A DNA stretch of 64,000 nucleotides, taken from assembly GCA_964036665.1 (NCBI GenBank), contig OZ038530.1, forward strand, positions 1,612,001 to 1,676,000, in the 5' to 3' direction. Both the position numbers and the translations under genes were made by a program. Origin of the DNA: Gordius sp. MW1. Its lineage: Eukaryota; Nematomorpha; Gordioida; Gordea; Gordiidae. Under the pieces are notes generated by a model. The model had not been told where the DNA came from and ran no database searches. It worked only from the letters and a program-made list of their open reading frames with translations. Positions within the stretch are counted from its first letter, which is position 1, and the number at the start of each line of letters is the position of its first letter. Positions 10,733 through 63,110 of the stretch are shown piece after piece.

Positions 10733-10740
10733 CGGACGGA

Positions 10741-26559: not shown

Positions 26560-26690
26560 AGCGGGTATTTTCACGCTAAAACAGAAGGAGTTACAAGGAA
26601 AAGTAATGTGTATAAATTTGAAGGCTCATTTTTTTAAAAATTCGGGATTGCCATTGGTTATACGAGAAAACATAAAAGATGAAAATCCTC
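26560..26690. other. Unique junction at forward-to-reverse switch (copy B)
   Basis: 131 bp, apparently identical to the junction at 20846-20976, with the same flanking monomers on both sides. Confidence 0.85.
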
Positions 26691-29600: not shown

Positions 29601-30164
29601 CTTTTTGTTGTCCGTACGTTGTCCGTCCGTGTCCGTCCGTCCTGCCCAACGTAAATAATGCTTAGATACATATCAAATTAAAGCCAAAATGATTTATTTT
29701 TTAATTGCTCTGCAATATATGGGCTCGCTTGTGTCCGTCCCTGTCCGTCCGTGTCCGTCCGTGTCGTTCCGTGACCGTCCGTTACCGTCCGTGACCATCC
29801 GTGACTATCCGTGACCATCCGTGACCATCCGTGACCGTCCGTGACCGTCCGTGACCATCCGTGATTGTCCGTGACCATCCGTGACCGTCCGTGACCATCC
29901 GTGACCATCCGTGACCATCCGTGACCGTCCGTGTCCATCCGGACCATCCGTGACCGTCCGTGACCGTCCGTGACCATCCGTTACCGTCCGTGACCGTCCA
30001 TGACCATCCGTGACTATCCGTGACCGTCTGTGATAGTCCGTGACAAGCCGTGACCGTCCATGACCATCCGTGACCGTCCGTGACCGTCCGTGACCATCCG
30101 TGACCGTCCGTGACCATCCGTGACCGTCCGTCCTTCCAACGTAAATAATGCTTAGATAGCAAAT
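26691..30164 (-). repeat. Inverted satellite domain (copy B)
   Basis: Duplicate of the inverted domain at 20977-24419. It is about 31 bp longer through gains and losses of whole monomers, as expected for slippage in the 10-bp arrays. The same divergent spacers recur near 26910, 28730 and 29660. Confidence 0.93.
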
Positions 30165-30443
30165 AAAAATGTTAAAAGGGGCAAGCCCCTTTAAGGGGGT
30201 ATGGGTGGGTGGGAGTATTAGTTAGTATTAGTTAGTATTAGTTAATATTAGTTAGTATTCTGTAGTGGCAGAATCTATGCCTAGAAGTTAAGATTCTAAT
30301 ATGTGTATTTACACCTTCAGTTGGTCCTTTTCGAATTTCTACTAAGCCAAGCATCTTTATTAGTAAGAATATCGTTTTTTACGCTTCTTGAGCGAAAGAT
30401 GCTTGGCTCAGTACAAATTCGAAAAAGACCAAATAAAGTACTG
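30165..30443. other. Unique junction at reverse-to-forward switch (copy B)
   Basis: 279 bp duplicate of 24420-24700. It carries a small deletion just before the hairpin, which shortens the outer stem. Confidence 0.85.
30323..30430 (-). other. Long hairpin at the satellite junction, copy B
   Basis: Arms at 30323-30358 and 30395-30430 are the same as in copy A, with the loop unchanged. The 3-bp deletion upstream removes most of the outer stem extension but leaves the 36-bp core intact. Confidence 0.7.
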
Positions 30444-40551: not shown

Positions 40552-43500
40552 ACGGACGGACAACAAAAAGCGAGCCCATAAATTGCATAGCAATTAAAAA
40601 ATAAATAATTTGGCTTTAATTTGCTATCTAAGCATTATTTACGTTGGAAGGACGGACGGACAACGGACGGACACGGATGGTCACGGACGGTCACGGATGG
40701 TCACGGACGGTCACGGATAGTCACGGATGGCCACGGACGGTCACGGATGGTCACGGACGGTCACGGACGGTCACGGACGGTCACGGATAGTCACGGATGG
40801 TCACGGACGGTCACGGACGGTCACGTATGGTCACGGATGGTCACGGACGGACAACGGACGGACAACAAAAAGCGAGCCCATAAATTGCATAGCAATTAAA
40901 AAATAAATAATTTGGCTTTAATTTGATATCTATCTAAGCATTATTTAAGTTGGAAGGACAGACGGACAACGGACGGACACGGATAATCACGGACGGTCAC
41001 GGATGGTCACGGATGATCACGGAAGGACAACGGACGGACAACAAAAAGCGAGCCCATAAATTGCATAGCAATTAAAAAATAAATAATTTGGCTTTAATTT
41101 GCTATCTAAGCATTATTTACGTTGGAAGGACGGACGGACAACGGACGGACACGGATGGTCACGGACGGTCACGGACGGTCACGGATGGTCACGGACGGAC
41201 AACGGACGGACAACAAAAAGCGAGCCCATAAATTGCATAGCTATTAAAAAATTAATAATTTGGCTTTAATTTGCTATCTAAGCATTATTTAGGTTGGAAG
41301 GACGGACGGTCACGGACGGTCACGGACGGTCACGGGTGGTCACGGATGGTCACGGATGGTCACGGACGGTCACGGCTGATCACGGACTATCACGGATGGT
41401 CACGGATCGTCACGGACGGTCACGGATGGTCACGGACGGTCACGGATCGTCACGGACGGTCACGGATCGTCACGGACGATCACGGATCGTCACGGACGGT
41501 CACGGATCGTCACGGATAGTCACGGATCGTCACGGACGGTCACGGATCGTCACGGACGGTCACGGATGGTCACGGACGGTCATGGATGGTCACGGACGGT
41601 CACGGACGGTCACGGACGGTCACGGACGGTCACGGACGGTCACGGATGGTCACGGACTATCACGGATGGTCACGGACGGTTCCGGATAGTCACGGATGGT
41701 CTCGGACGGTCACGGATGGTCACGGATGGTCACGGACGGTCACGGATGGTCACGGATGGACAACAAAAAGCGAGCCCATAAATTGCATAGCAATTAAAAA
41801 TTAATAATTTGGCTTTAATTTTATATGTATCTAAGCATTATTTACGTTGGGCAAGACGGACGGACACGGACGGACAACAGACGGACAACAAAAAGCGAGC
41901 CCATAAATTGCATAGCAATTAAAAAATAAATAATTTGGCTTTAATTTGCTATCTAAGCATTATTTACGTTGGAAGGACGGACGGACAACGGACGGACACG
42001 GATGGTCACGGACGGTCACGGACGGTCACGGATGGTCACGGACGGACAACGGACGGACAACAAAAAGCGAGCCCATAAATTGCATAGCTATTAAAAAATT
42101 AATAATTTGGCTTTAATTTGCTATCTAAGCATTATTTAGGTTGGAAGGACGGACGGTCACGGACGGTCACGGGTGGTCACGGATGGTCACGGACGGTCAC
42201 GGCTGATCACGGACTATCACGGATGGTCACGGATCGTCACGGACGGTCACGGATCGTCACGGACGGTCACGGATCGTCACGGACGGTCACGGATCGTCAC
42301 GGACGGTCACGGATGGTCACGGACGGTCACGGACGGTCACGGACGGTCACGGATGGTCACGGACTATCACGGATGGTCACGGACGGTTCCGGATAGTCAC
42401 GGATGGTCTCGGACGGTCACGGATGGTCACGGATGGTCACGGACGGTCACGGATGGTCACGGATGGACAACAAAAAGCGAGCCCATAAATTGCATAGCAA
42501 TTAAAAATTAATAATTTGGCTTTAATTTGATATCTATCTAAGCATTATTTACGTTGGAAGGACGGACGGACAACGGACGGACACGGACGGTCACGGATGG
42601 TCACAGACGGTCACGGATAGTCACGGATGGTCACGGACGGTCACGGATGGTCACGCAATTAAAAAATAAATAATTTGGCTTTGATTTGATATCTATCTAA
42701 GCATTATTTACGTTGGAAGGACGGACGGACAACGGACGGACACGGACGGTCACGGATGGTTACGGACGGTCACGGATGGTCACGGACAGTCACGGATAGT
42801 CACGGATGGTCACGGACGGTCACGGACGGTCACAGTAGGTCACGGATGGTCACGGACGGTCACGGATGGTCAAGGACGGTCACGGATAGTCACGGATGGT
42901 CACGGACGGTCACGGAGGGTCACAGATGGTCACGGACGGACAACGGACGGACAACAAAAAGCGAGCCCATAAATTGCATAGCAATTAAAAAATAAATAAT
43001 TTGGCTTTAATTTGATATCTATCTAAGCATTATTTACGTTGGAAGGACAGACGGACAACGGACGGACACGGATAATCACGGACGGTCACGGATGGTCACG
43101 GATGGTCACGGACGGACAACGGACGGACAACAAAAAGCGAGCCCATAAATTGCATAGCAATTAAAAAATAAATAATTTGGCTTTAATTTGCTATCTAAGC
43201 ATTATTTACGTTGGAAGGACGGACGATCACGGACGGTCACGGATGGTCACGGACGGTCACGGACGGTCACGGCTGGTCACGGACTATCACGGATGGTCAC
43301 GGACGGTCACGGACGGTCACGGACGGTCACGGACGGTCACGGACGGTCACGGATTGTCAAGGACGGTCACGGATCGTCACGGATGGTCACGGACTATCAC
43401 GGATGGTCACGGACGGTCACGTATAGTCACGGATGGTCACGGACGGTCACGGATGGTCACGGACGGTCACGGATGGTCACGGATGGTCATGGACGGTCAC

Positions 43501-45643
43501 GGATGGTCACGGATGGTCAGGACGGACAACAAAAAGCGAGCCCATAAATTGCATAGCAATTAAAAAATAAATAATTTGGCTTTAATTTGATATCTATCTA
43601 AGCATTATTTACGTTGGAAAGACGGACGGACAACGGACGGACACGGACGGTCACGGATGGTCACGGATGGTCACGGACGGTCACGGATAGTCACGGATGG
43701 TATTAAAAAATAAATAATTTGGCTTTAATTTGATATCTATCTAAGCATTATTTACGTTGGAAGGACAGACGGACAACGGACGAACACGGATAATCATGGA
43801 CGGTCACGGATGGTCACGGATGGTCACGGACGGACAACGGACGGACAACAAAAAGCGAGCCCATAAATTGCATAGCAATTAAAAAATAAATAATTTGGCT
43901 TTAATTTGCTATCTAAGCATTATTTACGTTGGAAGGATGGACGGTCATGGATCGTCACGGACGGACAACGGACGGACAACAAAGAGCGAGCCCATAAATT
44001 GCATAGCAATTAAAAAATAAATAATTTGGCTTTAATTTGCTATCTAAGCATTTTTTACGTTGGAAGGACGGACGGTCACGGATGGTCACGGATTGTCACG
44101 GACGGTCACGTATGGTCACTGACGGTCACGGATGGTCACGGACGGTCACGGATGGTCACGGACGGTCACGGATGGTCACGGACGGTCACGGATAGTCACG
44201 GACGGTCACGGACGGTCACGGATGGTCACGGACGGTCACGCATGGTCACGGATGGTCACGGATGATCACGGACGGTCACGAACGGTCACGGAACGACACG
44301 GACGGACACGGACGGACAGGGACGGACACAAGCGAGCCCATATATTGCAGAGCAATTAAAAAATAAATCATTTTGGCTTTAATTTGATATGTATCTAAGC
44401 ATTATTTACGTTGGGCAGGACGGACGGACACGGACGGACAACAGACGGACAACAAAAAGCGAGCCCATAAATTGCATAGCAATTAAAAAATAAATCATTT
44501 GGCTTTAATTTGCTATCTAAGCATTATTTACGTTGGAAGGACGGACGGACAACGGACGGAGATGGTCATGGACGGTCACGGATGGTCAGGACGGTCACGG
44601 ATGGTCACGGACGGACAACGGACGGACAACAAAAAGCGATCCCATAAATTGCATAGCTATTAAAAAATTAATAATTTGGCTTTAATTTGCTATCTAAGCA
44701 TTATTTACGTTGGAAGGACGGACGGTCACGGACGGTCACGGGTGGTCACGGATGGTCACGGACGGTCATGGCTGATCACGGACTATCACGGATGGTCACG
44801 GATCGTCACGGACGGTCACGGATCGTCGCGGACGGTCACGGATCGTCACGGACGGTCACGGAGGACGGTGGATCGTCACGGACGGTCACGGATCGTCACG
44901 GACGGTCACGGATGGTCACGGACGGTCACGGACGCTCACGGACTATCACGGATAATCACGGACGGTCACGGATAGTCACGGATGGTCTCGGACGGTCACG
45001 GATGGTCACGGACGGTCACGGATGGTCACGGATGGACAACAAAAAGCGAGCCCATAAATTGTATAGCAATTAAAAATTAATAATTTGGCTTTAATTTGAT
45101 ATCTATCTAAGCATTATTTACGTTGGAAGGACGGACGGACAACGGACGGACGTGGACGGTCACGGATGGTCACGGACAGTCACGGATGGTCACAGACGGT
45201 CACGGATAGTCACGGATGGTCACGGACGGTCACGGACGGTCACGGACGGTCACGGATGGTCACGGACTCACAACGGACGGACAACAAAAAGCGAGCCCAT
45301 AAATTGTATAGCAATTAAAAAATAAATAATTTGGCTTTAATTTGATATCTATCTAAGCATTATTTACGTTGGAAAGACGGACGGACAACGGACAGACACG
45401 GATCATCACGGACGGTCACGGACGGTCACGGACAGTCACGGATGGTGACGGATGGTCACGGACGGACAACGGACGGACAACAAAAAGCAAGCCCATAAAT
45501 TGCATAGCAATTAAAAAATAAATAATTAGCTTTAATTTGATATCTATCTAAGCATTATTTACGTTGGGCACAACGGACAGACATGAACGGACACGGACGG
45601 ACACGGACGGTCACGGACGGACACGGACGGACAACTGACGGAC
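40552..45643 (+). repeat. 5.1-kb tandem duplication, copy 2
   Basis: Near-identical to 35450-40551. The only length change I found is loss of one 10-bp monomer in the long GGTCACGGAC run near 43300, after which the offset falls from 5102 to 5092 bp. Such similarity means a very recent duplication, ongoing homogenisation or an assembly duplication. Confidence 0.93.
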
Positions 45644-46055
45644 ACGGACGGACAACAAAAAGCGAGCCCATAAATTGCATAGCAATTAAAAAATAAATAA
45701 TTTGGCTTTCATTTGATATCTAAGCATTATTTACGTTGGAAGGAAGGACGGACGGGCAATGGACGGACACGGGCGGTTACGGACGGACAACGGACGGACA
45801 ACGGACGGACAACAAAAAGCGAGCCCATAAATTGCATAGCAATTAAAAATTAAATAATTTGGCTTTAATTTGATATCTCTAAGCATTATTTACGTTGGAA
45901 GGACGGACGGACAACGGACGGACACGTACGGTCACGGACGGACATGGACGGTCACGGATGGTTACGGACGGTCACGGACGGTCACGGATGGTCACGGACC
46001 GACAACGGACGGACAACAAAAAGCGAGCCCATAAATTGCATAGCAATTAAAAAAT
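45644..46055 (+). repeat. Last satellite cassettes before the transposon-rich edge
   Basis: Three diverged cassettes with short arrays. They contain a GGAAGGACGG variant near 45742 and shortened spacers. The final spacer stops at AATTAAAAAA and abuts the TE-S element start. Confidence 0.85.
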
Positions 46056-46270
46056 ACTCGGGGCCTTCGGCCCTCGTGGGAAGGGGGAGGGGAGAAGGGA
46101 AGGGGGGAAGGGAAGGGGGGAAGGGAAGGGGGAAAGGGAAGGGGGGAAGGGAAGGGGGGAAGAGAAGGGGGGACGACTCATTTATACTTCGTATAAATGT
46201 ATCATATTTGCTATGCAATTTATGGGCGAGAAAGGTGGGAAGGGGCGAGAATGCCTATAGGGGGGTATTA
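46056..46270 (+). repeat. ACTCGGG G-rich repeat, copy 1
   Basis: Left end of TE-S: hairpin GGGCC-TTC-GGCCC, a run of GGGAAGGG units, then GAGAATGCCTATAGGGGGG. Related fragments stand at 55246-55405 (+), within 59484-59669 (-) and at 62905-63110 (+), so this end also disperses separately. Confidence 0.85.
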
Positions 46271-46517
46271 AATGCCTAATGATTAATTAATTATTTATAC
46301 AAATTTTCCATTTATAGGCAAAATGTAATATAGGCAAGTGTTAGGGTTAGATTTAGTGTTTGCATCTAGTTGCGTATTACATTAGTTTTTATGGCCTTTA
46401 GTGATTATGGGTCTAACAAACATTATATTCTAAAACATCACAATGTTAAGAATTAGCAGAATTGTTGGGAGAAATTTTTTGATGAATTTGAACAATTTTT
46501 AATTAAAAAAATCAAAA

Positions 46518-47080
46518 ACTTGGCCAATGGTCATTTGTTCCATTGGTCAGTACCAACAGATACTCTATAAGTCAATGATAGCCAAAAGAACGGAAAAAAA
46601 ATTTTTGATGCTCACTTTGGCCAATGGTCATTTTTTTCCATTGGTCAGCAGCCAGCACACGGAGTGGATATAAATTCATAAGAGTAAAAAAAACGAAAAA
46701 AAAATTTTCGAATCACATTTTGGCCAATGGTCATTTTTTTCCATTGGTCAGCAGCCAGGACACGGTAAAAGTGGGTATAAATTCATAATAGTCAAAAAAA
46801 AACGAAAAAATTAATTTCGATTCACATTTTGGCCAATGGTCATTTTTTCCATCGGTCAGGAGCCAGCGGACGGCCAAAAAGTCATAATAGCAATGGTAGT
46901 AACAGGAACAATCATAATAGTCAAAAAAAACGAAAAAATAAACTCGGATTCACATTTTGGCCAATGGTCATTTTTTTCATTGGTCAGCAGCCAGCGGACG
47001 GCCAAAAAGTCTTATTATCAATGATAGTAACAAGAACAATCATAAGAGTCAAAAAAAACTCCGGGATTCTAACCCAAAAA
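46518..47080 (+). repeat. Five tandem units with a CCAATGG/CCATTGG hairpin
   Basis: Units begin near 46520, 46616, 46718, 46827 and 46955. Each opens with TGGCCAATGGTCA, a T-run and CCATTGGTCAG, giving a 7-bp stem. Units 2-5 then have a GGAGCCAG or CAGCCAG segment and an A-rich tail with CGAAAAA. Units 4 and 5 are about 128 bp; the earlier ones are about 96-109 bp. The mirror set lies at about 58490-59235. Confidence 0.85.
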
Positions 47081-47101
47081 CTAGTTAAATTGCATTGCAA
47101 T

Positions 47102-47425
47102 TAAAAGTAAACAACTTTTATTTATGTATATTAAATAATAAAATGAAACAATAATAGAACAAGCGGACGGCCAAAAAGTCATATTATCAATGGTAGTAAC
47201 AGGAAAAATATATTAATTTAATTTAAAAAATAAAAAAAAAATTTGCCCTCTCCGGGAATCGAACCAGCAATTCAGAACGTTCGCCGGGGTTCGCCCCCAC
47301 ATTAATAGAGCCCTAGGCTTTTGTAGGGGCACAGGGACCCATATCAGTAGAGGCATAGGCCCAGTGGAGGGCATAGGGTAATTATAGCAATTAATATCAA
47401 TGTTACCCAATTCAAAAACGAATAG
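47102..47425 (-). mobile_element. Copy 1-specific insertion with tRNA-like core (possible SINE)
   Basis: About 324 bp present in TE-S copy 1 but missing from copy 2, where flanking sequences join directly. It holds a partial CCAATGG-type unit and, on the minus strand, a Pol III B-box-like GGTTCGATTCC at 47255-47265. Upstream of that is a weak A-box-like stretch at about 47296-47313, and downstream a T-run at 47232-47240 that could terminate Pol III. The T-arm stem pairs only 3 of 5 positions and no acceptor stem was found, so this is not a functional tRNA. A tRNA-derived SINE fragment is the leading reading, with moderate doubt. Confidence 0.4.
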
Positions 47426-47649
47426 ATATACTTATGAATTAATTTAACGTAGCAATTAAAACCCGACCCCGCCCGAAAGCGAGGGAGATAGAGATGAAGG
47501 GTGGGGCACCTCTTATGCATTAATTTAAAAAATAACACAGCGAGGGAGATAGAGATGAGGGGTGGGGCACCTCTTTCTCATGCATTAATTTAAAAAATCG
47601 ATAACCTAATATACCCAATGCAAATAGATAGGGAGGGTAACGGACGGAC

Positions 47650-48451
47650 TAGAGGTGTGCACGGATCAAATTTTCGTGATCCGATCCGATCCGAGGGGTT
47701 TTTGGAAAATTTTATATCCATCCGATCCGATCCGAGTTTTTTAAAATCTAAATCCGATCCGATCCGATCCGAGTTTTTTAAAATCTAAATACGATCCGAT
47801 CCGATCCGATCCGAAATTTTTAAATTAAAATTTTACGACAAGAACTTTTTATTGATGATTAAATTCAAAATACATAAAAATAAGGTAAGCAATTTTAATA
47901 GACCTGAAATAAATATAAAATTTTATTTGACTAATTCCATATTATCCTATAAAAATAATAAAGAATCTTAATTTTCTGGTTTAATTCGGGGAAAGGAGCT
48001 ACGCGTGTGCCTTAAGGAAAGGGGAGATTGTGATTGATAATTTTCGGAGTTGAGTTAAGATAGAAAGAGATGCGTGTGCTAAAAAGGAAACGGAAGATGC
48101 TGATTTATCATTGACACTAGCTTCTTTCTCGCCAAACAAGAAAGTCTAGCTAGGGAAAAACGCTAGGGAAATACTGATAAATATATTAGGGTAAGTAAGG
48201 TGAGAGGTGGTATTGGGCATCAAAAATGGTAAAAGAATGCAAAGATAATTAACTAAAAATAATTAATTTAATTAATTAGAACTTATTATTGTTTATTTTA
48301 AATTTGAAAATCCGATCCGATCCGACTAAAATAAAATGTTGATCCGATCCGATCCGACTTCCAAAATTAAAATGTTGATCCGATTCGTCCGAATCCGAGT
48401 TCGGACGGATCGGATCGGATGTCGGATCGGATTGATCCGTGCACACCTCTA
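47650..48451. mobile_element. 802-bp MITE with hAT-like ends
   Basis: Terminal inverted repeats TAGAGGTGTGCACGGATC and its complement, flanked on both sides by GGACGGAC, an 8-bp direct repeat. Ends of the form YAGRGGTG and 8-bp target duplications are typical of the hAT superfamily. Subterminal clusters of GATCC pentamers lie in both ends. The interior is AT-rich, without a credible reading frame. One caution: the target is itself a (GGAC)n tract, so the duplication could be partly coincidental. Confidence 0.8.
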
Positions 48452-48535
48452 GGACGGACAACGGACGGATAACGGACGGACGGACGACGGACGGACGGAC
48501 AACCAAAAACGAGCCCATAAATTGCATAGCAATTA

Positions 48536-49981
48536 ATAAATAATTTGGCTTTAATTTGATATCTATCTAAGCATTATTTACGTTGGAAGGACGGACGGAC
48601 AACGGACGGACACGGATGGTCACGGATGGTCACGGACAGTCACGGATGGTCACGGACGGTCACGGATGGTCACGGACGGACAACGGACGGACAACAAAAA
48701 GCGAGCCCATAAATAGCATAGCAATTAAAAAATAAATAATTTGGCTTTAATTTGATATCTATCTAAGCATTATTTACGTTGGAAGGACAGACAACGGGCG
48801 GGCACGGACGGTCACGGATGGTCATGGATGGTCATGGACAGTCACGGATTGTCACGGACGGTCACGGGCGGTCATGGACGGTCAGGGACGGTCACGGCTG
48901 GTCACGGACTATCACGGATGGTCACGGACGGTCACGGATAGTCAGGGACTGTCACGGACGGTCACGGATGGTCACGGACGGTAACGGATGGTCACGGACG
49001 GACAACGGACGGACAACAAAAAGCGAGCCCATAAATTGCATAGCAATTAAAAATAAATAATTTGGCTTTAATTCGATATCTATCTAAGCATTATTTACGT
49101 TGGAAGGACGGACGGACACGGATGGTCACGGACGGTCACGGATGGTCACGGACGGACAACGGACCGACAACAAAAAGCGAGCCCATAAATTGCATAGCAA
49201 TTAAAAAATAAATATTTTGGCTTTACTTGCTATCTAAGCATTATTTACGTTGGAAGGACGGACGGTCACGGACGGTCACGGATGGTCACGGACGGTCACG
49301 GACGGTCACGGACGGTCACGGACGGTCACGGACGGTCACAGTCACGGATAGTCACGGATGGTCACGGATGGTCACGGATAGTCACGGATGGTCACGGATG
49401 GTCACGGATGGTCAAGGACGATCACGGACGGTCACAAATGGTCATGGACGGTCACGGACGGTCACGGACGGTCACGGATCGTCACGGATGGTCACGGACT
49501 ATCACGGATGGTCACGGACGGTCACGGATGGTCACGGACGGTCACGGATGGTTACGGACGGTCACGGATGGTCACGGACGGACAACGGACGGACAACAAA
49601 AAGCGAGCCCATAAATTGCATAGCAATTAAAAAATAAATAATTTGGCTTTAATTTGATATCTATCTAAGCATTATTTACGTTGGAAGGACGGACGGACAA
49701 CGGACGGACACGGATAGTCACGGACGGTCACGGACGGTCACGGATGGTCACGGACGGTCACGGATGGTCACGGACGGTCACGGATGGTCACGGACGGTCA
49801 CGGATGGTCACGGACGGTCACGGACGGACAACGGACGGACAACAAAAAGCGAGCCCATAAATTGCATAGCAATTAAAAAATAAATAATTTAGCTTTAATT
49901 TGATATCTATCTAAGCATTATTTACGTTGGAAGGACGGACGGACAACGGGCGGTCACGGACGGTCACGGATGGTCATGGAC
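48536..49981 (+). repeat. Forward satellite between TE-S and the foldback element
   Basis: Resumes at ATAAATAATTTGGC directly after the TE-S end. Cassettes are diverged, with GGTCATGG, GGTCAGGG and GGGCGG monomer variants near 48790-48960 and an array with phase slip CGGTCACAGTCACGG near 49335. It ends inside an array at the foldback element. Confidence 0.92.
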
Positions 49982-50261
49982 GTGTTGTTAATCTGCTAAA
50001 TGGGTTCTGCTGGTATAGTGCTAAACCTGGTAATAGGCACATATCTCCTACCATTACCATCATTATTAAGCAGCACATGCTGCTTAATAACCCGGTTGCT
50101 ATCACTGGCAACCATGGTTGCTTGGTTGTAAGAGATGTAAGTAACCGGGCATTTGGCAGATAGGATTGATATAACCGTGGTATTGAGCAGGCTCGTTTTA
50201 AACTAAACATGGTTTTTAGCAAATTCAATTTTAGCTTACTATTAGAGTTGGTAGCTGCCAT
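49974..50261 (-). CDS. Hypothetical 95-residue frame in left foldback arm
   Basis: An open frame starting MAATNSNSKLK within the left arm. Its first 62 residues match the frame in the right arm at 51731-51994 except for one L/F change. The arms are near-identical as DNA, so matching frames are expected and do not show selection. The C-terminal part diverges and runs a few bases past the element boundary into satellite. I recognise no domain, and the basic serine/leucine-rich composition is uninformative. A chance frame is the simplest reading; an element-encoded small protein is possible. Confidence 0.15.
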   Translation of the reverse strand: MAATNSNSKLKLNLLKTMFSLKRACSIPRLYQSYLPNARLLTSLTTKQPWLPVIATGLLSSMCCLIMMVMVGDMCLLPGLALYQQNPFSRLTTRP

Positions 50262-50349
50262 ATAATGCTAATCAATATTTTTCAATCATATATTAATCCA
50301 AAAATGGTGATTAAAAAATTTAAATATATTATAAATTTGTCCCGTTATT

Positions 50350-51029
50350 TTGCCCCCCCCCCTAATTTTTTATCCTCTTTCTCACCAGGGGGGAGGGGGG
50401 GGGGGGGGGGGGGTGTTTTGCCCCCCCCCCTAATTTTTTATCCTCTTTCTCACCAGGGGGGGGGGGTGTTTTGCCCCCCCCCTAATTTTTTATCCTCTTT
50501 CTTACCAGGGGTGAGGGGGGGGGGGGGTGTTTTGCCCCCCCCCCCTTATTTTTTATCCTCTTTTTGACGAGAGGGGAGGGGGGGGGGTGTTGCCCCCCCC
50601 CTTATTTTTTATCCTCTTTCTCACCAGGGGGGGGGGGGTGTTTTGCCCCCCCCCCTTATTTTTTATCCTCTTTTTGACGAGAGGGGAGGGGGAGGGGTGT
50701 GTTGCCCCCCCCCCCTTATTTTTTATCCTCTTTCTCACCAGGGGGGGGGGGGTGTTTTGCCCCCCCCCCTTATTTTTTATCCTCTTTCTCACTAGGGGGG
50801 AGGGGGGGGTGTTTTGCCCCCCCCCCTAATTTTTTATCCTTATTTTGACCAGAGGGGAGGGGGGGTGTTTTGCCCCCCCCCCCACTATTTTTTAGGCTTT
50901 TTCTCACCAGGGGGGAGGGGGGGGGGGTGTTTTGCCCCCCCCTTATTTTTTAGGCTTTTTCTCACCAGGGGGTAGGGGGGGTGTTTTGCCCCCCCCCCTT
51001 TATTTTTTTATCCTCTTTCTCACCAGGGG
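50350..51029 (+). repeat. Left G/C-tract subrepeat array of the foldback element
   Basis: About 11 units. Each has a C-run, TTATTTTTTATCCTCTTTCT or a relative, CACCAGGGG, a G-run and GTGTTTTG. The G-run and the next C-run pair around GTGTTTTG, so each unit is itself a hairpin, and G-runs of 7-17 could form quadruplexes. Some units carry a TTTTTGACGAGAGGGG variant. Confidence 0.9.
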
Positions 51030-51030
51030 C

Positions 51031-51645
51031 CCCCTGGTGAGAAAGAGGATAAAAAATAAGGGGGGGGGGCAAAACACCCCCCCTACCCCCTGGTGAGAAA
51101 TAGGATAAAAAATTAGGGGGGGGGGCAAAACACCCCCCCCCCCTGGTGAGAAAGAGGATAAAAAATAAGGGGGGGGGGCAAAACACCCCCCCCCCTCCCC
51201 CCCTGGTAAGAAAGAACGTAAAAAATTAGGGGGGGGGGCAAAACACCCCCCCCTCCCCTCTCGTCAAAAAGAGGATAAAAAATAAGGGGGGGGGCAAAAC
51301 ACCCCCCCTACCCCCTGGTGAGAAATAGGATAAAAAATTAGGGGGGGGCAAAACACCCCCCTCCCCCCTGGTGAGAAAGAGGATAAAAAATAAGGGGGGG
51401 GGGGGCAAAACACCCCCCCCCCCTCCCCCCCTGGTAAGAAAGAACGTAAAAAATTAGGGGGGGGGGGCAAAACACCCCCCCCCCCGCCCTGGTGAGAAAG
51501 AGGATAAAAAATAAGGGGGGGGGCAAAACACCCCCCCCCCCCTACCCCCTGGTGAGAAAGAGGATAAAAAATTAGGGGGGGGGCAAAACACCCCCCCCCC
51601 CCCCCTGGTGAGAAAGAGGATAAAAAATTAGGGGGGGGGCAAAAT
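51031..51645 (-). repeat. Right G/C-tract subrepeat array of the foldback element
   Basis: Inverted counterpart of the left array with about 10-11 units, including a GGTAAGAAAGAACGT variant near 51210 and 51434 that I did not find in the left arm. Unit order is not an exact mirror, so the arms have shuffled or gained units since the palindrome formed. Confidence 0.9.
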
Positions 51646-51730
51646 AACGGGACAAATTTATAATATATTTAAATTTTTTAATCACCATTTTTGTATTAAT
51701 AAATGATTGAAAAATATTGATTAGCTTTAT

Positions 51731-51994
51731 ATGGCAGCTACCAACTCTAATAGTAAGCTAAAATTCAATTTGCTAAAAACCATGTTTAGTTTAAAACGAG
51801 CCTGCTCAATACCACGGTTATATCAATCCTATCTGCCAAATGCCCGGTTACTTACATCTCTTACAACCAAGCAACCATGGTTGCCAGTGATAGCAACCGG
51901 GTTATTAAGCAGCATGATGCTGGTTATGATGATGGTAATGGGCGAGATGTATGCTACTACCATAGGTTATGGTAGTAGCATTTTGGCATTTTAA
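51731..51994 (+). CDS. Hypothetical 87-residue frame in right foldback arm
   Basis: Mirror-arm partner of the frame at 49974-50261, with the same start codon context and the same first 62 residues except one. After residue 62 it becomes methionine-rich and ends just inside the element terminus. No family is recognised, and no start-site or splice evidence is visible. It is listed only because the frame is kept open in both arms, which is weak evidence given their DNA identity. Confidence 0.15.
   Translation: MAATNSNSKLKFNLLKTMFSLKRACSIPRLYQSYLPNARLLTSLTTKQPWLPVIATGLLSSMMLVMMMVMGEMYATTIGYGSSILAF
51951..51981. other. Terminal hairpin in right foldback end
   Basis: Perfect 14-bp stem ATGCTACTACCATA with a GGT loop, ending 19 bp inside the right terminus. 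The left end lacks it, so the element's two ends are distinguishable. Confidence 0.85.
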
Positions 51995-52000
51995 CAACAC

Positions 52001-54115
52001 TAGTCACGGATTGTCACGGACGGTCACGGACGGTCATGGACGGTCACGGACGGTCACGGCTGGTCACGGACTATCACGGATGGTCACGGACGGTCACGGA
52101 TAGTCACGGATGGTCACGGACGGTCACGGATGGTCACGAACGACGGATAGTCACGGACGGTCACGGATGGTCACGGACGGTAACGGATGGTCACGGACGG
52201 ACAACGGAAGGACAACAAAAAGCGAGCCCATAAATTGCATAGCAATTAAAAAATAAATAATTTGGCTTTAATTCGATATCTATCTAAGCATTATTTACGT
52301 TGGAAGGACGGACGGACACGGATGGTCACGGACGGTCACGGATGGTCACGGATGGTCACGGACGGACAACGGACGGACAACAAAAAGCGAGCCCATAAAT
52401 TGCATAGCAATTAAAAAATAAATATTTTGGCTTTACTTGCTATCTAAGCATTATTTACGTTGGAAGGACGGACGGTCACGGACGGTCACGGATGGTCACG
52501 GACGGTCACGGACGGTCACGGACGGTCACGGACGGTCACGGACGGTCACGGACGGTCACGGACGGTCACGGACGGTCACGGACGGTCACGGACGGTCACG
52601 GACGGTCACGGATAGTCACGGATGGCACGGATGGTCAAGGATAGTCACGGATGGTCACGGATGGTCAAGGACGATCACGGACGGTCACGGATGGTCACGG
52701 ACGGTCACGGACGGTCACGGACGGTCACGGACGGTCACGGACGGTCACGGATCGTCACGGATGGTCACGGACTATCACGGATGGTCACGGACGGTCACGG
52801 ATGGTCACGGACGGTCACGGATGGTTACGGACGGTCACGGATGGTCACGGACGGACAACGGACGGACAACAAAAAGCGAGCCCATAAATTGCATAGCAAT
52901 TAAAAAAGAATAATTTGGCTTTAATATGATATCTATCTAAGCATTATTTACGTTGGAAGGACGGACGGACAACGGACGGACACGGATAGTCACGGACGGT
53001 CACGGACGGTCACGGAGGGTCACGGATGGTCACGGATGGTCACGGACGGACAACGGACGGATCACAAAAAGCGAGCCCATAAATTGCATAGCAATTAAAA
53101 AATAAATAATTTGGCTTTAATTTGCTATCTAAGCCTTATTTACGTTGGAAGGACGGACGGTCACGGACGGTCACGGATGGTCACGGACGGTCACGGACGG
53201 TCACGGACTATCACGGATAGTCACGGACGGTCACGGATAGTCACGGATAGTCACGGACGGTCACGGACGGTCACGGACGGTCACGGACGGTCACGGACGG
53301 ACAACGGACGGACAACAAAAGCGAGCCCATAAATTGCATAGCAATTAAAAAATAAATAATTTGGCTTTAATTTGATATCTATCTAAGCATTATTTACGTT
53401 GGAAGGACGGACGGACAACGGACGGTCACGGACGGTCACGGATGGTCATGGATGGTCACGGATTGTCACGGACGGTCACGGCTGGTCACGGACTATCACG
53501 GATGGTCACGGACGGTCACGGATAGTCACGGATGGTCACGGACGTCACGGACGGTCACGGATGGTCACGGACGGTCACGGATGGTCACGGACGGTCACGG
53601 ATGGTCACGGACGGACAACGGACGGACAACAAAAAGCGAGCCCATAAATTGCATAGCAATTAAAAAATAAATAATTTGGCTTTAATTTGATATCTATCTA
53701 AGCATTATTTACGTTGGAAGGACGGACGGACAACGGACGGATACGGACGGTCACGGATGGTCACGGACGGTCACGGACGGACACGGACGGTCACGGACGG
53801 ACACAGACGGTCACGGACGGACACTGACCGTCACGGACGGACACGGACGGTCACGGATGGTCACGGATGGCCACGGACCATCACGGATGGTCACGGACGG
53901 TCACGGATAGTCACGGATGGTCACGGATGGTCACGGACGGTCACGGATGGTCACGGACGGTCACGGATGGTCACGGACGGTCACGGACGGACAACGAACG
54001 GACTACGGACGGACAACAAAAAGCGAGCCCATAAATTGCATAGCAATTAAAAAATAAATATTTTGGCTTTAATTTGCTATCTAAACATTATTTACGTTGG
54101 AAGGACGGACGGTCA
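52001..54115 (+). repeat. Forward satellite domain 3
   Basis: Cassettes close to those at 48780-49640: the arrays with GGATCGTCACGG followed by GGACTATCACGG near 49490 and 52755 match, so the two segments derive from a duplicated block on either side of the foldback element. The array near 53760-53850 mixes GGACACGG and GGTCACGG monomers. It ends abruptly in GGACGGTCA. Confidence 0.9.
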
Positions 54116-54487
54116 AATAATTCTTAGATAGATATCAAATTAAAGCCAAATTATTTATTTTTTAATTGCTATCCAATTTATGGGCTCGCTTTTTGTTGTC
54201 CGTCCGTTGTCCGTCCGTGTCCGTCAGTTGTGTGTCCGTGTCCGTCCGTGACCGTCCATGACCGTCTGTGTACGTCCGTGTCCGTCCGTTGTTCGTCCGT
54301 GCTTCTAACGTAAATAATGCTTAGATATCAAATTAAAGCCAAATTATTTATTTTTTAATTGCTATGCAATTTATGTGTCTCGCTTTTTGTTGTCCGTCCG
54401 TTGTCCGTCCGTGTCCGAGCGTGACCATCCGTGACCGTCCGTGACCATTTGTGACCGTCCGTGACTATCCGTGACCGTCCGTGATAG
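54116..54487 (-). repeat. Terminal inverted satellite segment
   Basis: Begins AATAATTCTTAGATAGATATC, the middle of a spacer on the complementary strand, fused directly to a forward array. It holds one full and one partial inverted cassette and ends at CCGTGATAG, the right limit of the continuous satellite. Confidence 0.92.
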
Positions 54488-54527
54488 TGATGGTGGAATA
54501 GCGTTTGCTAGGCGCTTAAGCTATAGC

Positions 54528-54738
54528 ACATAGGCACGTGGAGGCGCTACAGTTATAGGAGATAGTCACGTGGAGGCGCTACAGTTATAGGAGATAGTCA
54601 CACGAGGGCGCTAGAGCTATAGGAGATAGGAACACGAGGGCGCTAGAGCTGTAGGAGATAGTCACACGAGGGCGCTAGAGCTGTAGGAGATAATCACACG
54701 AGGGCGCTAGAGTTGTAGGAGATTGTCCCATTAGGTGC
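54528..54738 (+). repeat. 32-bp minisatellite next to the hAT-like terminus
   Basis: About 6.5 units of 32 bp. Each contains a CACGTGG or CACACGAGG segment, then GGCGCTAGAGCT or GGCGCTACAGTT, then GTAGGAGATAG. The last unit degrades into GGTGCTAGAGGTATAGC, the start of the hAT-like inverted repeat, so the array may have grown from subterminal element sequence. Confidence 0.85.
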
Positions 54739-55050
54739 TAGAGGTATAGCTATAGCGTAGCGCTATCCTTGTTATGATTTTTTATTGTTAAGTAGCATCT
54801 GTGCACATTTGCTTTAAACTATCTTTATATAAGTGACCTAAATTAAGTATGAAAGACGCAGGCACATACATAAACAGAATCTCGTCTGGTCTGACGACCT
54901 TTTAATTTATATATTCAAGAAAGTTATTTCAATCGATCTAAAATAAGATTTTTAAATCTGTTATTTCTAATTAAATAATTTTAATATTTATATTTTCGGC
55001 TTTTTTAATAATTTAAGAGTATTCAATATAAATTTAGTCCCTCATTTAAA
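54739..55050 (+). repeat. Left inverted repeat of the hAT-like element
   Basis: Starts TAGAGGTATAGCTATAGCG and runs to CCTCATTTAAA. It is the inverted counterpart of 60695-61012, with scattered substitutions and small indels. Confidence 0.85.
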
Positions 55051-55245
55051 GTACTTTTAAAAGAACTTAACCGCATTTCTAAAGATTAAAATTCAATTAT
55101 AAAACGTTAGAGTTCTCAAGCAGATGTATTATAAAACTTATATTTATAATATTATAAACAACTATCTTAATTTTTTAATTTATTTATCTCACATCCACAA
55201 AATATGTAATTCACTTTATAAAAATAATAAATGATTAAATATTAA

Positions 55246-55405
55246 ACTCGGGCCTTCGGCTCTCGTGGGAAGGGGGAGGGGAGAAGGGAAGGGGGGAAGG
55301 GAAGGGGGCACGACTCATCTATACTTCGTATAAATGTATCATATTTGCTATGCAATTTATGGGCGAGAAAGGTGTGAAGGGGCGAGAATGCCTATAGGGG
55401 GGGTA
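55246..55405 (+). repeat. ACTCGGG G-rich repeat, copy 2 (solo fragment)
   Basis: Starts ACTCGGGCCTTCGGCTCTCG, followed by GGGAAGG tracts, the CTTCGTATAAATGTATC segment, TTGCTATGCAATTTATGGGC, and ends GAGAATGCCTATAGGGGGG. Unlike copies 1 and 4 it is not followed by the ATGATTAATTAATTATTT-type segment. Confidence 0.85.
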
Positions 55406-56220
55406 TTTTTAATTTATATATTAAACCGTAAAAAAAATTTCGCTTCAAAATGATAAGAGTTAGATTTCTAATATTTTGAAGAAGCATTGGTAACCCTACT
55501 TAATTTTTTTTACATTAATTCAATTTCAAACTTCCAAGAGCTTGTTCTAAGGTTTTGTGCACACAATATTATATGTTAAACATACTAATTTTATTTTATA
55601 ACTCAATGTTCGAAAATAAGTTACAAATATAATGGATTAAAAACACTAAATTTAATGCAAATATTTTAATTATATTTATTTATAGTCTATAAGAAACACG
55701 AATGTCGAAAATAGGTTTGAAAAAAATATAGCAATTAATGTGATTAACAATAAAGGGATAAATTAAAATTTTATTATCCATATCCATTATTTAAATTTGA
55801 ATTTAATGCAAAAAGTACCCAAGGTTAATATACATAGGCGTAGTGGGTAAGCATTGACCAATGTAAGTAAAACATTCCCAACCTTAATCATACCCATTAT
55901 TCTTTTTTTTATTGTATTAATTTTAACAATGCTTAACATTTTTGGTTTGTTCGCCCATTTTTTATTTTATTATTCCTTTTTATAATTATATATTTTTTAT
56001 ATATTTTATTGAAGAATTCTTATTTAATACTTTTTGAATGACAATTTTCAAATTAATTTTTGCATTTTCTATTAATCCCCACTTAATTACTCGACTCGAT
56101 AACTTTAATATACATAAAATTAAACCAAAAATCATCGCTCCTTTAAGAAATTGTAACATGAGGGCTAACTTGTAAATCAACGCAGGTGTAACTTGTATTT
56201 TTTAGTTCGTAAAAATAGTC

Positions 56221-56400
56221 TCCACCAGTGGCGTAGCTAGCCTTTTTGCCTTGGGGGAGGGGGGGGCTGAGCAGGTAAAGCCATGGGGGGGGGGGGGGGG
56301 ACACAAAAATTTTAACTACTAAAACCCTTCAAAATTTAAAAATATTATGTTTTGTCCCCCCCCCCCCTAATCCAAAATCTGGATACGACCATGGGTCAAA
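56221..56400. repeat. Element fragment with GGCGTAGCTAGC end and paired G/C runs
   Basis: CACCAGTGGCGTAGCTAGCC is followed by two long G-runs (near 56256 and 56284) and an opposed C-run near 56355. It ends near CCAAAATCTGGATACGACC. Related GCGTAGCCAGG motifs occur near 62514 and in the MITE at 63601. Class is not determined. Confidence 0.5.
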
Positions 56401-56884
56401 CGCAAATGAAAAATTTTTCCCTCATAAACGTTGGACAAACTTAAAATTCAGCTACTACTTTCGGTATTTTTTCTAATAACATCACACTGGTATGTCTCAG
56501 ACCCTCATGTTTTTAGGGCATAAAATAAATAAAATTTATTCATGAATAAAATAAAGTAATGTAGTTGAAACAATATAAAAAATTTCACATGGTATAATAT
56601 GTTTTTTTATAAATGAATTGTAAGAGCACAAAGTGGAACGAGGATATTGGCAAGAAATCGTTGACATTTTAAAAAATAATACAAATAGTAAAAAAAACTA
56701 TACAGTGTTTTTATAAAATGATTTAATTGCCACCCAAAAAATCTTGGCCATATATATAACAAATTTTAATTTTACATATGCAATATTGGCAGCATTTTAA
56801 GGTAGCATTTATATCAGGAAAACAATGAGAACATTTAAAAGCGTTTGGCATCCTCACAAGGCGTAATTATAACAAAACTCGTTT

Positions 56885-57175
56885 TAATTAAAAAATCGAT
56901 AACCTAATATACCCAATGCAAATAGATAGGGAGGGTGTAACCCACCGAGGGAGATAGAGATGAGGGGTGGGGCACCTCTTATGCATTAATTTAAAAAATA
57001 ACACAGCGAGGGAGATAGAGATGAGGGGTGGGGGCACCTATTTCTCATGCTTTATTTTAATAAGTCGATAACCTAATATACCCAATGCAAATAGATAGGG
57101 AGACGGACGGACGGACGGACAACGGACATACAACGGACGGACAACCAAAAACGAGCCCATAAATTGCATAGGAAT
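56885..57175 (+). repeat. TE-S fragment, copy 3 (distal part)
   Basis: Two copies of the GAGGGAGATAGAGATGAGGGG module, the CCCAATGCAAATAGATAGGG segment (here twice), a (GGAC)n stretch, and the end CGAGCCCATAAATTGCATAG followed by GAATTA. It lies immediately downstream of the transposase stop codon. It is a third context in which the satellite spacer end is attached to TE-S. Confidence 0.8.
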
Positions 57176-57182
57176 TAATAAT

Positions 57183-57455
57183 TCATGTCATTCCTTTCCA
57201 GCTATTCACGCATAGCATTTGATTCAAAGTAATGGGAGACAATCTTGATCTTTTCTTTGTCAATATATTTCCGGCCTTGGAAAATAAACGCTCACTGGGG
57301 ACGGAAGTGCTCTGATGGCATAAATAATCTCTGGCCATAGCTGCCAGACTCGGAAATCTAAACGATGATGATTTCCACCACTCAAGTATATTAACATCGC
57401 CGTGACATTCAGTCTCAATAATATAACTATCTAATTCATCATCACCCAGAAACAT
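57183..57455 (-). pseudogene. hAT transposase C-terminus, hATC dimerisation domain
   Basis: This 90-residue frame carries the conserved hAT C-terminal dimerisation region. It shows WWKSSSFRFPSLAAMARDYL, then TSVPSERLFSKAG, and KKRSRLSP with NQMLCVNSW. In the family this segment pairs transposase subunits and closes the catalytic fold in the nucleus. The order and spacing fit hATC well. The apparent methionine start is internal; the true protein would begin far upstream on the same strand near 60450, but frameshifts and an insertion separate the parts. The stop is followed at once by a TE-S fragment. A domesticated single-domain gene is conceivable, but nothing here supports expression. Confidence 0.85.
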
Positions 57456-58173
57456 TCGTGAACTAAATATTGTAAAATTTACACAAAATTATTTTACCTG
57501 CGTTTTTTCTGTAAAATTGATTCGGTAAATGAACCACTTATCATCGGTCTCTCTAGTAAATAACGACCGCTATAATTATCAATAAAGTCCCGACGAAAAT
57601 TATCCCAATGTTCATCGGTGTTTAAATGACTAGGCATTGCTTTTCTCTTACACGTGGGTCCAATATAGAGCATGTATATACCTCTTGGGTACACATTAAG
57701 GAAAAATATGTTTGGCTTTAACAATCATTTTGGTGGCTGCCTCCGTAAGAGTGGGATATGTTATACTATTTCTTTCTAATTCGCAAATAATTTCTTCAAA
57801 AAAATTTCCGACAATACCCATTGTCGGGATTATTTCTGTGCAAAGTCCCAAAGTTACCTTTTTATTGTCAATGTATAAAAAAATATTTAATATACTTTGT
57901 AGAATGGAAGAAAAAAATTCTCAACTTCTTTTAAATATCTAATTTCTTCATGATTCATCTGGAAAATATTTCTGTACAATGATGTTCAAGGTGCTCATTT
58001 CCTGAAAAAATATTGTATAATTTCGATATAATAAACCTTATTTGCCTTTTGTAACATTAGGTATGTTGAATTCCACCGAGTGTTGTTCGCTAAAGGAATC
58101 AAGGAATTAGAATGGTTGAACCATTCCTCCCTCATTGCGGACTTGTAATGAATATAATGGACCAGGCGATTGA
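57456..58173 (-). pseudogene. hAT transposase middle region, broken
   Basis: Read on the minus strand from 58173, the frame gives a segment ending in the hAT signature TRWNSTYLML (58052-58081) and then a stop. Pieces of the expected continuation follow in shifted frames: EEIRYLKEVENFFLPFYKVY, then a stop, then KKVTLGLCTEIIPTMGIVG and, about 20 residues on, a TYPTLTEAATKM-like stretch before another stop near 57695. At least three lesions separate this region from the hATC frame. Its upstream join to the TDNASN part is interrupted by TE-S copy 2. In intact relatives this region lies between the catalytic core and the dimerisation domain. Decay is certain; assignment to hAT is firm because of the signature. 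Confidence 0.8.
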
Positions 58174-59669
58174 TTTTTAATTGCTATGCAATTTATGGGC
58201 TCGTTTTTTGGTGTCCGTTGTCCGTCCGTCCTCCCTATCTATTTGCATTGGGTATATTAGGTTATCGATTTTTTAAATTAATGCATGAGAAAGAGGTGCC
58301 CCACCCCTCGTCTCTATCTCCCTCGCTGTGTTATTTTTTAAATTAATGCATGAGAAAGAGGTGCCCCACCCCTCATCTCTATCTCCCTCGCTTTCGGGCG
58401 GGGTCGGGTTTTAATTGCTACGTTAAATTAATGCATAAGTATATCTATATTTAAATTTTGGTAATTGCTATGCAATTTAACTAGTTTTGGGGTTAGAATC
58501 CCGGAGTTTTTTTTGACTCTTATGATTGTTCTTGTTACTATCATTGATAATAAGACTTTTTGGCCGTCCGCTGGCTGCTGACCAATGAAAAAAATGACCA
58601 TTGGCCAAAATGTGAATCCGAGTTTATTTTTTCGTTTTTTTTTGACTATTATGATTGTTCCTGTTACTACCATTGCTATTATGACTTTTTGGCCGTCCGC
58701 TGGCTCCTGACCGATGGAAAAAATGACCATTGGCCAAAATGTGATTCGAAATTATTTTTTTCGTTTTTTTTGACTATTATGATTGTTCCTGTTCTTACCA
58801 TTGCTATTATGACTTTTTGGCCGTTAGTTTTGGCTCCATCCCCAATACCCCAAGTAAACAAGGAGGAAGGTGCATCAAAAAAGTATGAGGTATGAGTAAT
58901 CTGCACAAGAGTATCACTCGTAGGGGTATTTTTCATACTCTCATCTACTGTGTCAATTTCTTTTTTTTTACTTCGCTGGCTGCTGACCAATGGAATAAAA
59001 TGACCATTGGCCAAAATGTGATTCGAAAATTTTTTTTTCGTTTTTTTTTGACTATTATGAATTTATATCCACTTTTACCGTGTCCTGGCTGCTGACCAAT
59101 GGAAAAAAATGACCATTGGCCAAAATGTGATTCGAAAATTTATTTTTCGTTTTTTTTACTCTTATGAATTTATATCCACTTTTACCGTGTGCTGGCTGCT
59201 GACCAATGGAAAAAAATGACCATTGGCCAAATTTTTGATTTTTTTAATTAAAAATTGTTCAAATTCAACAAAAATTTCTCCCAACAAATCTGCCAATTAT
59301 TAACATTGTGATGTTTTATAATATAATGTTTGTTAGACCCATAATCACTAAAGGCCATAAAAACTAATGTAATACGCAACTAGATGCAAACACTAAATCT
59401 AACCCTAACCCTTGCCTATATTACATTTTGTCTATATTACATTTTGCCTATAAATGGAAAATTTTTATAAATAATTAGGTTATCATTAGGCATTTAATAC
59501 CCCCCTATAGGCATTCTCGCCCCTTCCCACCTTTCTCGCCCATAAATTGCATAGCAAATATGATACATTTATACGAAGTATAGATGAGTCGTCCCCCCTT
59601 CCCTTCCCCCCTTCCCTTCCCCCCTTCCCTTTTCCCCTCCCCCTTCCCACGAGGGCCGAAGGCCCGAGT
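58174..59669 (-). mobile_element. TE-S element copy 2, inserted in the hAT transposase
   Basis: Inverted copy of 46056-48535 without the MITE and without the 324-bp tRNA-like insertion. On the minus strand it starts ACTCGGGCCTTCGGCCC at 59669 and ends with the (GGAC)n tract, CGAGCCCATAA and the palindrome AATTGCATAGCAATTA near 58178. It separates the HPYLI and NRLVHYIHYK parts of the transposase, so both element ends can be read against a known interrupted gene. This is the cleanest evidence that the satellite spacer end belongs to a mobile unit. Confidence 0.8.
58490..59235 (-). repeat. CCAATGG hairpin units within TE-S copy 2
   Basis: Mirror image of the five-unit array at 46518-47080, with GACCAATGG and CCATTGGCC pairs near 58580, 58708, 58986, 59094 and 59203. 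The unit between 58708 and 58986 contains about 140 bp of extra sequence not in copy 1. Confidence 0.8.
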
Positions 59670-60448
59670 ATAATTAAATAAGGATGGATAATTTTCAACC
59701 CTTCGCCAGCAATGAGGTTTATAACATGAGCACCGCATCTGAAATTTAAAATTTTGGTAGTGGGCATATTATTACGCAATAAAGTAATTGCGTTTATTTT
59801 ATTGGAGGCATTGTCGGTGGTGAAAGAGAGAAACTTATCTTCCAGATTGAAATCGACTAATACTTTGTGCAAAATATTCGATATTTCTCTACCCGTATGG
59901 GGTGTTGGCATCATTAGTATTTGAAGTAACAGATTTTCCAGCCGCCATTGTTTATTGATGAAATGTATTGTTATTCCTATATATGACACATTATTCGGGC
60001 TTTGCCCATGCGTTGTTATGGTCCTAAGTTTATTTGAGAGGATTTCTTTCTGGCCTTCATATATTTCGAGCAGGTGGGTTTTTGCAGTTTGTTTGCACCA
60101 CAAATTGATGTTGCCGCTAAGACATTCCAACATCATTTTCAAACTTGGGCTATTATAGGTCGATAGCGGAATATTGTCATTAATGACATATTCTAAAAAT
60201 TTACTATTAAAAGTTTCATTTTGTTCATCAGTCACGGCACCTTTAAAAATGGATGGTGTCTTTTCGATCGCAATTAATTTTTCCGGATGGGCGTTATTAA
60301 AATGTGTCCTGATGTTAGTGACGGAAGTTTTAAGGCTAAATGTTCTGGTGCACTCGATACATTTCTTTTTGGTTTTACGTGGGTATAGACTTTTATAGCT
60401 TTGGGGGATAACGTTAAATCGCTTGTATTTAAGGATGACATTGACATT
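59670..60448 (-). pseudogene. hAT/ZBED transposase N-terminal part with BED finger and catalytic core
   Basis: The open frame begins after a stop at 60451 and runs to the TE-S insertion. Residues 30-54 hold a BED-type zinc finger: CIEC, 15 residues, then H-x4-H (codons at 60361, 60352, 60304 and 60289). BED fingers bind the transposon ends. Further on, YIGITIHFI, HTGREISNIL, TDNASN (about residue 211) and RCGAHVINLI (about 237) match the RNase H-like core of hAT transposases, and the frame leaves the gene at IIHPYLI. No in-frame ATG precedes the finger; the nearest ATGs, about 10-16 bp inside the frame, are in another frame, which implies a lesion or a missing upstream exon. A nuclear cut-and-paste role is known for the family; this copy cannot encode it. 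Confidence 0.85.
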
Positions 60449-62904: not shown

Positions 62905-63110
62905 ACTCGGGCCTTCGGCTCTTGTGGGAGGGGGGAAGGGAAGGGGGAGGGAGGTGCAGGAGGCAAGGGGGAACGAAACTCATTTATACTCCGTATAAAC
63001 GTAGCATATTTGCTATGCAATTTATGGGCGAGAAAGGTGGGAAGGGGCGAGAATGCCTATAGGGGTGTATAAAATGCAAAATGATTAGTTAATTATTTAT
63101 ACAAATATTT
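62905..63110 (+). repeat. ACTCGGG G-rich repeat, copy 4
   Basis: ACTCGGGCCTTCGGCTCTTG with GGGAAGGG tracts, a TATACTCCGTATA hairpin variant, TTGCTATGCAATTTATGGGC, GAGAATGCCTATAGGGG and a downstream ATGATTAGTTAATTATTT segment shared with copy 1. Confidence 0.85.

Follow-up and report, generated by a model that had tools for sequence, protein, structure and literature searches.

What gave rise to the satellite that occupies much of a 64,000-nucleotide stretch of the genome of the horsehair worm Gordius sp. MW1? This stretch, hereafter the window, corresponds to C4:1612001-1676000 and was analysed against the genome searched (212 Mb, 12 contigs). A sequence-only reading of the window had proposed that the spacer of the satellite also forms the end of a transposable element (TE-S), and that the satellite consists of tandemised copies of a whole non-autonomous transposon. 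Our analysis upholds the kinship between satellite and element and changes its form. The C4 satellite is probably a tandem amplification of the 5' terminal module of an element resembling HINEs (non-autonomous Helentrons), from which the 3' end is absent. As Helentron-type elements have already been published as a source of satellites (excerpts of PMC7492417 and PMC12628747), the case is a further example of a known route from transposon to satellite, and the unit made of a 5' end only is its special feature.

The satellite motif as the 5' terminus of a dispersed element

The satellite motif CGAGCCCATAA-ATTGCATAGCAATT forms the terminus of an element at three places of the window, at 48510-48534, at 57152-57176 (with one mismatch, CATAGGAATT) and, inverted, from 58179, each time beside a GGAC/GTCC stretch and within some bases of the positions first proposed. 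Its inverted partner, which had been predicted at the opposite end of the element, is found there together with a hairpin end in copies 1 to 3 and in a fourth 3' end (46057-46227, 55247-55364, 59538-59668 on the other strand, and 62906-63029); the window holds three copies with both ends and this fourth 3' end (Table 1). The motif had been assigned to the distal end of TE-S, and it is indeed an element end, namely the 5' one. When the hairpin is placed at the 3' end, the element reads T(T)-AATTGCTATGCAATTTATGGGCTCG-(GTCC)n-variable interior-GCCCATAAATTGCATAGCAAATATG-hairpin-(CCCTT)n-CACGAGGGCCGAAGGCCCGAG-T. The subterminal inverted repeats (subTIRs) are AATTGCTATGCAATT at the 5' end and its inverted partner ATTTGCTATGCAATT at the 3' end. 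The 3' palindrome GGGCCGAAGGCCC sits 3-6 bp before the terminus, and the 3' subTIR of copy 2 ends about 110 bp from it because the CCCTT stretch intervenes. The interiors vary between copies while the ends agree, and diverged subfamilies have the same 5' terminus. In copy 2, the copy examined for coding capacity, the longest reading frame wholly within the element is 111 amino acids, hence it has no capacity to encode a transposase.

This element is highly repeated. The 15-mer AATTGCATAGCAATT has 16,974 exact matches in the genome (8,587 + 8,387) and the same letters read backwards have none, which excludes chance. Exact 5' ends amount to 6,382, satellite units included, and 3' ends with at most one mismatch to 4,540, with backward controls of 0 in both cases; these end counts leave out diverged copies, as the patterns used were exact or nearly so. 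Among 42 matches to the 5' end (at most three mismatches) in 26 fetched loci, a GTCC-like stretch is adjacent to 38, a satellite fragment on C8 counted; the other four comprise one proper 5' end and three matches that are not. The loci fetched in this work come nearly all from C1.

Copy 2 proves to be a bounded insertion whose empty site can be recognised, and the proposal that the motif had moved as part of an element is borne out. It interrupts a transposase gene, as had been noticed, whose 3' part contains the hAT dimerisation domain and which has uninterrupted paralogues. Indeed, when the flanks of copy 2 were joined and matched against the genome, three uninterrupted matches were obtained on C7, C2 and C6, with 95% identity over query bases 1-196. 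The empty site reads GATTGATTTT|AATTAAATAAGG and the occupied one GATTGATTTT-T-AATTGC...GGCCCGAG-TAT-AATTAAATAAGG, with no target duplication. Two other matches (one on C8, one on C3) span the joined junction in the search, and a further hAT copy fetched from C8, 78% identical, is uninterrupted as well. Target duplication was examined at copy 2 with its three paralogues and at copy 1 with intact spacers. The flanks of copy 1 rejoin to an intact spacer without duplication, counting one T before AATTGC and TAT after GAG as part of the element. A 4-bp target duplication (TATT) that copy 1 had suggested is contradicted by the ends of the other copies and by the empty site.

The occupied element-in-hAT site recurs four times on C4, twice on the minus strand (198861 and 316927) and twice on the plus strand (1537715 and 1670079). 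These sites seem to result from segmental duplication of large blocks rather than from four insertions.

Satellite units and clusters of 5' modules without 3' ends

In each satellite module, a 5' subTIR is followed by a GTCC-derived minisatellite and then by a 60-bp AT-rich segment. With up to 7 of 25 mismatches allowed, the 5' pattern has 202 matches in the window, made up of 198 satellite modules, the 5' ends of copies 1 to 3 and one internal motif of copy 2. The AT-rich segment lies directly upstream of 197 of the 198 modules, and the last one, at 46048, is parted from it by copy 1. The longest satellite tract (1-46053) runs mostly on the minus strand in element orientation and includes two inverted tracts. 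By eye, some dispersed subfamilies, for example the one at locus L028, resemble the satellite 5' module (GCTTTTTGTTGTCC) more closely than copies 1 to 3 do. No 3' end was found in any of the 198 modules. Hairpins (at most six mismatches) and exact 3' subTIRs of the window are confined to the four elements; once five to six mismatches are allowed, the 3' subTIR pattern picks up 5' modules too, which is to be expected. The satellite units of the window are free of 3' ends and carry the 5' module only, which rules out for the window a satellite of tandem complete elements, as the sequence-only reading had envisaged.

The AT-rich segment has a distribution of its own. It has 1,699 exact matches in the genome and 2,204 with at most two mismatches. 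The 100 exact matches listed are all on C4, from C4:43,556 to C4:79,954 and on one strand, and C1-C3 have none among them; among the 100 near-exact matches listed, 99 are on C4 and one is on C8. The segment is nearly confined to C4 among these matches, which cover C5-C12 in part only and do not prove that it is restricted to C4. The C8 match is a lone satellite fragment inside an element and has no ends of its own. Solo copies, in which a 10-mer array would lie between the two spacer halves, had been expected as well; none is present among the AT-segment matches listed, and no solo satellite-unit transposon was detected in 20 C1 loci of 9.9 kb (at most 14 of 43 mismatches). The spacer is an element end for its motif half, the 5' terminus, and its other half, the AT-rich segment, lies in no bounded element found.

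Series of 5' modules are not peculiar to the satellite, and 5'-biased tandemisation recurs in the genome, on C1 besides C4. The matches listed include six same-strand 5' clusters on C1, and in all four that were fetched (L043-L046) 5' modules succeed one another head-to-tail without an intervening 3' end. At C1:2678827-2687287, six exact 5' ends are accompanied by two exact 3' ends, and at C1:2681183 six Ts link a 3' end to a 5' end, both of them complete. On C1, the first 100 5' ends listed were compared with the 54 exact 3' ends of the stretch that they span. Within 4 kb, 35 of them are followed among the listed features by a same-strand 3' end (at 0.39-3.79 kb), 17 by a same-strand 5' end, 7 by an opposite 3' end and 2 by an opposite 5' end, and the other 39 by none. 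Neighbouring 5' ends less than 1 kb apart are on the same strand in nine cases and on opposite strands in four; under random placement, the same-strand number averaged 1.6 and never exceeded 7. This neighbour pattern fits 5'-biased tandemisation.

Element class and origin of the array

From its anatomy, we infer that the element is a non-autonomous rolling-circle transposon of the HINE type, in agreement with the Helentron/DINE-type likeness recognised earlier. It displays palindromic subTIRs of 15 bp, a 5' GTCC microsatellite, a 3' palindrome, T-rich insertion, no target duplication with a paralogous empty site and, in copy 2, no capacity to encode a transposase. TT precedes 35 of 39 5'-end matches, against a background of 13.8%, and 34 of 37 when the C8 satellite fragment and a 3' subTIR that the pattern had picked up are set aside; a T follows 12 of 12 3' ends. 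According to the empty site, at least one flanking T belongs to the element, which makes the preference for T-rich sites less exact than these counts. The ends, T(T)AATTGC and GAGT with a T-rich boundary, do not match those of canonical Helitrons (5' TC, 3' CTRR, A/T insertion). Excerpts of PMC4067079 describe the HINE families of the mite Metaseiulus and Drosophila DINE-1 as non-autonomous Helentrons, with 12-15 bp subTIRs (palindromic in the mite families), a 3' palindrome, TT or T-rich insertion, terminal Ts in related families and microsatellites or tandem repeats in some copies, all of which have counterparts here.

The literature was surveyed for Helitron- or Helentron-linked satellites at large rather than for this sequence or species, and such satellites are reported from oysters, Drosophila and, through the review PMC12628747 (in excerpt), plants. 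The excerpts of PMC7492417 attribute to the Pacific oyster Cg_HINE a microsatellite after the 5' subTIR and HINE-linked satellite-like arrays, as in Gordius; unlike here, where the unit includes the 5' terminus and lacks the 3' end, the oyster repeats are central within the elements. Comparable too are the truncated-Helitron arrays of plants (Xiong et al. 2016, as cited in the part of PMC12628747 available to us), in which 5' ends are amplified without 3' ends; those of Gordius differ by their HINE-type ends and minisatellite expansion. Particular to the present case is that the amplified part could be identified as the 5' terminal module alone.

The same review describes Helitron arrays in which numerous 5' ends accompany one 3' end, and attributes them to loss of the 3' terminator followed by rolling-circle replication. 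We favour a similar course, in which a 3' terminator would have been lost and replication restarting at the 5' end would have yielded the first tandem copies; the C4 array may then have been enlarged as its GTCC minisatellite grew and through unequal exchange and the duplication of blocks. A bolder version, tentative and on balance rather unlikely, would have rolling-circle transposition in this genome often restarting at the 5' end without terminating, so that head-to-tail series of 5' modules were left behind at numerous dispersed loci; on C4, one such product would have expanded, by means of the GTCC microsatellite at its own end, into a satellite specific to that chromosome, with more than 2,000 units. 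If this were true, a satellite would have been seeded by the replication origin of a Helentron, and intermediate stages could still be seen. Candidates for intermediate stages, namely pairs, small clusters and a complete head-to-tail dimer, occur in the same genome and make the order of events testable.

Several observations weigh against this amplification of a HINE-like 5' module. Concerning the edges of the array, eight C4 stretches were fetched as candidates, of which four proved to be still satellite and four to be real edges (L047, L048, L049 and L052). Against the simplest form of terminator loss, a 3' end was found at none of the four real edges, whereas a single 3' end is described for the plant arrays in the excerpts of PMC12628747; alternatively, the edges may have been remade. 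Beyond them lie pieces of mitochondrial genes, further inserts or GGAC repeats. The AT-rich segment may be a captured 5' flank. The orientation bias between neighbours is modest, and many clusters could consequently be explained by self-insertion into T runs. Regarding class, the 3' subTIR of copy 2 lies about 110 bp from the terminus versus about 38-60 bp in the mite families (PMC4067079, in part), a distance that is a measure of those families and not a general Helentron rule, and the hairpin lies 3-6 bp from the terminus versus about 8-35 bp in mite HINEs (same excerpts). Finally, no autonomous partner was found among the ten Rep/helicase loci that were read, namely L029-L034 (3.5 kb), L036-L038 (9.9 kb) and L056 (4.5 kb); the Pfam profile Helitron_like_N had 714 candidate matches, 150 of them scored. 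Nine of the ten are without the ends described here, and the short loci (3.5-4.5 kb) may not reach their element ends. At the tenth, L037, the Rep-helicase frame is followed on its own strand, 38 bp further on, by the start of a HINE-like copy; we take this copy for an insertion and not for the Rep element's own end. The two loci with a readable 3' end, L036 and L038, are ordinary Helitrons, and L036 ends in CTAG.

Four other explanations deserve consideration. The one that survives best, a real possibility although short of an even chance, involves no rolling-circle step: the 5'-end fragment of one C4 insertion, together with about 60 bp of 5' flank, would have been duplicated in tandem and grown by unequal exchange. 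The AT-rich segment does occupy the position of an insertion's 5' flank, ends T-rich like other 5' flanks and, among the matches listed, is almost exclusively on C4. However, 5'-only tandem modules also exist at other loci. In addition, several dispersed subfamilies have a CCAAC-like word after the microsatellite, as does the AT-rich segment, a weak hint that the segment is interior, through a likeness too short to weigh.

It is also conceivable, if doubtful, that the series of 5' modules were produced by repeated self-insertion of elements into one another's T runs and that a nest of this kind gave rise to the satellite. The junctions are rich in T, and by eye adjacent modules in L043 and L044 resemble different subfamilies. 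Nesting nevertheless predicts equal numbers of 5' and 3' ends, in contrast to the six and two exact ends of the C1 stretch given above (inexact ends uncounted), and random orientation, whereas same-strand neighbours exceed opposite ones, not decisively.

Membership of another class with inverted subterminal repeats, for example a miniature inverted-repeat transposable element (MITE) of a cut-and-paste transposon, would agree with the failure to find an autonomous partner among the Rep/helicase matches looked through; the lack of target duplication at the empty site, the asymmetric ends, the terminal 3' hairpin and the T-rich boundary make it improbable. Least credible by far is that the satellite came first and that elements captured its spacer by ectopic recombination, as might be said of the satellite fragment inside the C8 element, which has no element ends of its own, since there are thousands of 5' ends, the AT-rich segment is absent from 20 C1 loci of 9.9 kb, a bounded insertion has empty sites, and diverged subfamilies have a common 5' terminus.

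Other inserts and recurrent motifs

The features of the window are collected in Table 1. Copy 1, inserted in a satellite spacer, is itself broken by a MITE, which implies the order satellite, element, MITE. Because the 8-bp duplication of this MITE falls in repeated GGAC sequence, it is weak evidence alone; from its anatomy, we presume that the MITE belongs to the hAT superfamily.

Table 1. Positions of satellite tracts, elements and interrupted gene in the window
Feature	Position	Strand	Remarks
Satellite	1..46053		tandem 5' modules, 10-bp minisatellite, 60-bp AT-rich segment; median spacing about 200 bp; interrupted by other inserts
HINE-like copy 1 (TE-S)	46054..48535	-	both ends present; in satellite spacer; broken by MITE at 47650-48451
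MITE in copy 1	47650..48451		inverted TAGAGGTGTGCACGG ends; GGACGGAC on both sides = 8-bp duplication
Satellite, continued	48536..49981	-	
Satellite, continued	52001..54420		one orientation switch near 54120
HINE-like copy 3	55246..57176	-	both ends, in the right order; interior mostly unlike copy 2; ends presumably of one element
hAT transposase, second part	57177..58177	-	stops in every frame; hAT dimerisation domain, E 7e-23
HINE-like copy 2	58178..59671	+	in hAT transposase gene; empty site at C7, C2, C6
5' terminal module	58179..58228	+	15-bp palindromic subTIR AATTGCTATGCAATT, TTATGGGCTCG, GTCC microsatellite; dispersed copies elsewhere
3' terminal module	59538..59668	+	inverted subTIR, second hairpin ATACATTTATACGAAGTAT, CCCTT stretch, hairpin GGGCCGAAGGCCC, GAG
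hAT transposase, first part	59669..60448	-	zf-BED, E 0.0032, 17.9 bits, under the cut-off of 20.6
Fourth element, 3' end	62906..63109	-	5' end outside the window

The satellite of the window also contains a 2-kb insert (49982-52000) that resembles a foldback element, since its ends are inverted (GTGTTGTTAA...TTAACAACAC) and its long tandem units, G-rich and C-rich, are oppositely oriented. A directly repeated stretch at 20600-24860 and 26300-30600, about 5.7 kb apart, includes switches of satellite orientation and a hairpin-rich insert; inserts like the latter are also found at C4:1459700 and C4:214300. The mitochondrial gene pieces beside satellite edges lie in L047 at 1-398 (C4:1459700), in L048 at 163-438 (C4:380900) and, by eye, in L049 (C4:358300). 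They correspond to COX1 and ATP synthase subunit a (Pfam E-values 2.6e-27 and 1.1e-14) and are nuclear mitochondrial insertions in the C4 satellite region.

Among the Helitrons, L036 has at 2747-7060 an uninterrupted Rep-PIF1 helicase frame of 1,437 amino acids, 98% identical to that of L038 and placed after 138-bp tandem repeats. Within the HINE-like elements, an internal AATTGCTATGCAATTTAACTAG followed by T (window 58463-58484; L018 7754-8240) resembles a Helitron 3' end (hairpin and CTAG), and in places this motif recurs about every 58 bp. Words like GGTTCGAATCC, which we take to resemble the tRNA B box, are present in elements at L023, L028 and L043-L046, often near the 5' module. The palindrome is also found before unrelated sequence at L013, L016, L017, L026 and L027, mostly after T-rich flanks.

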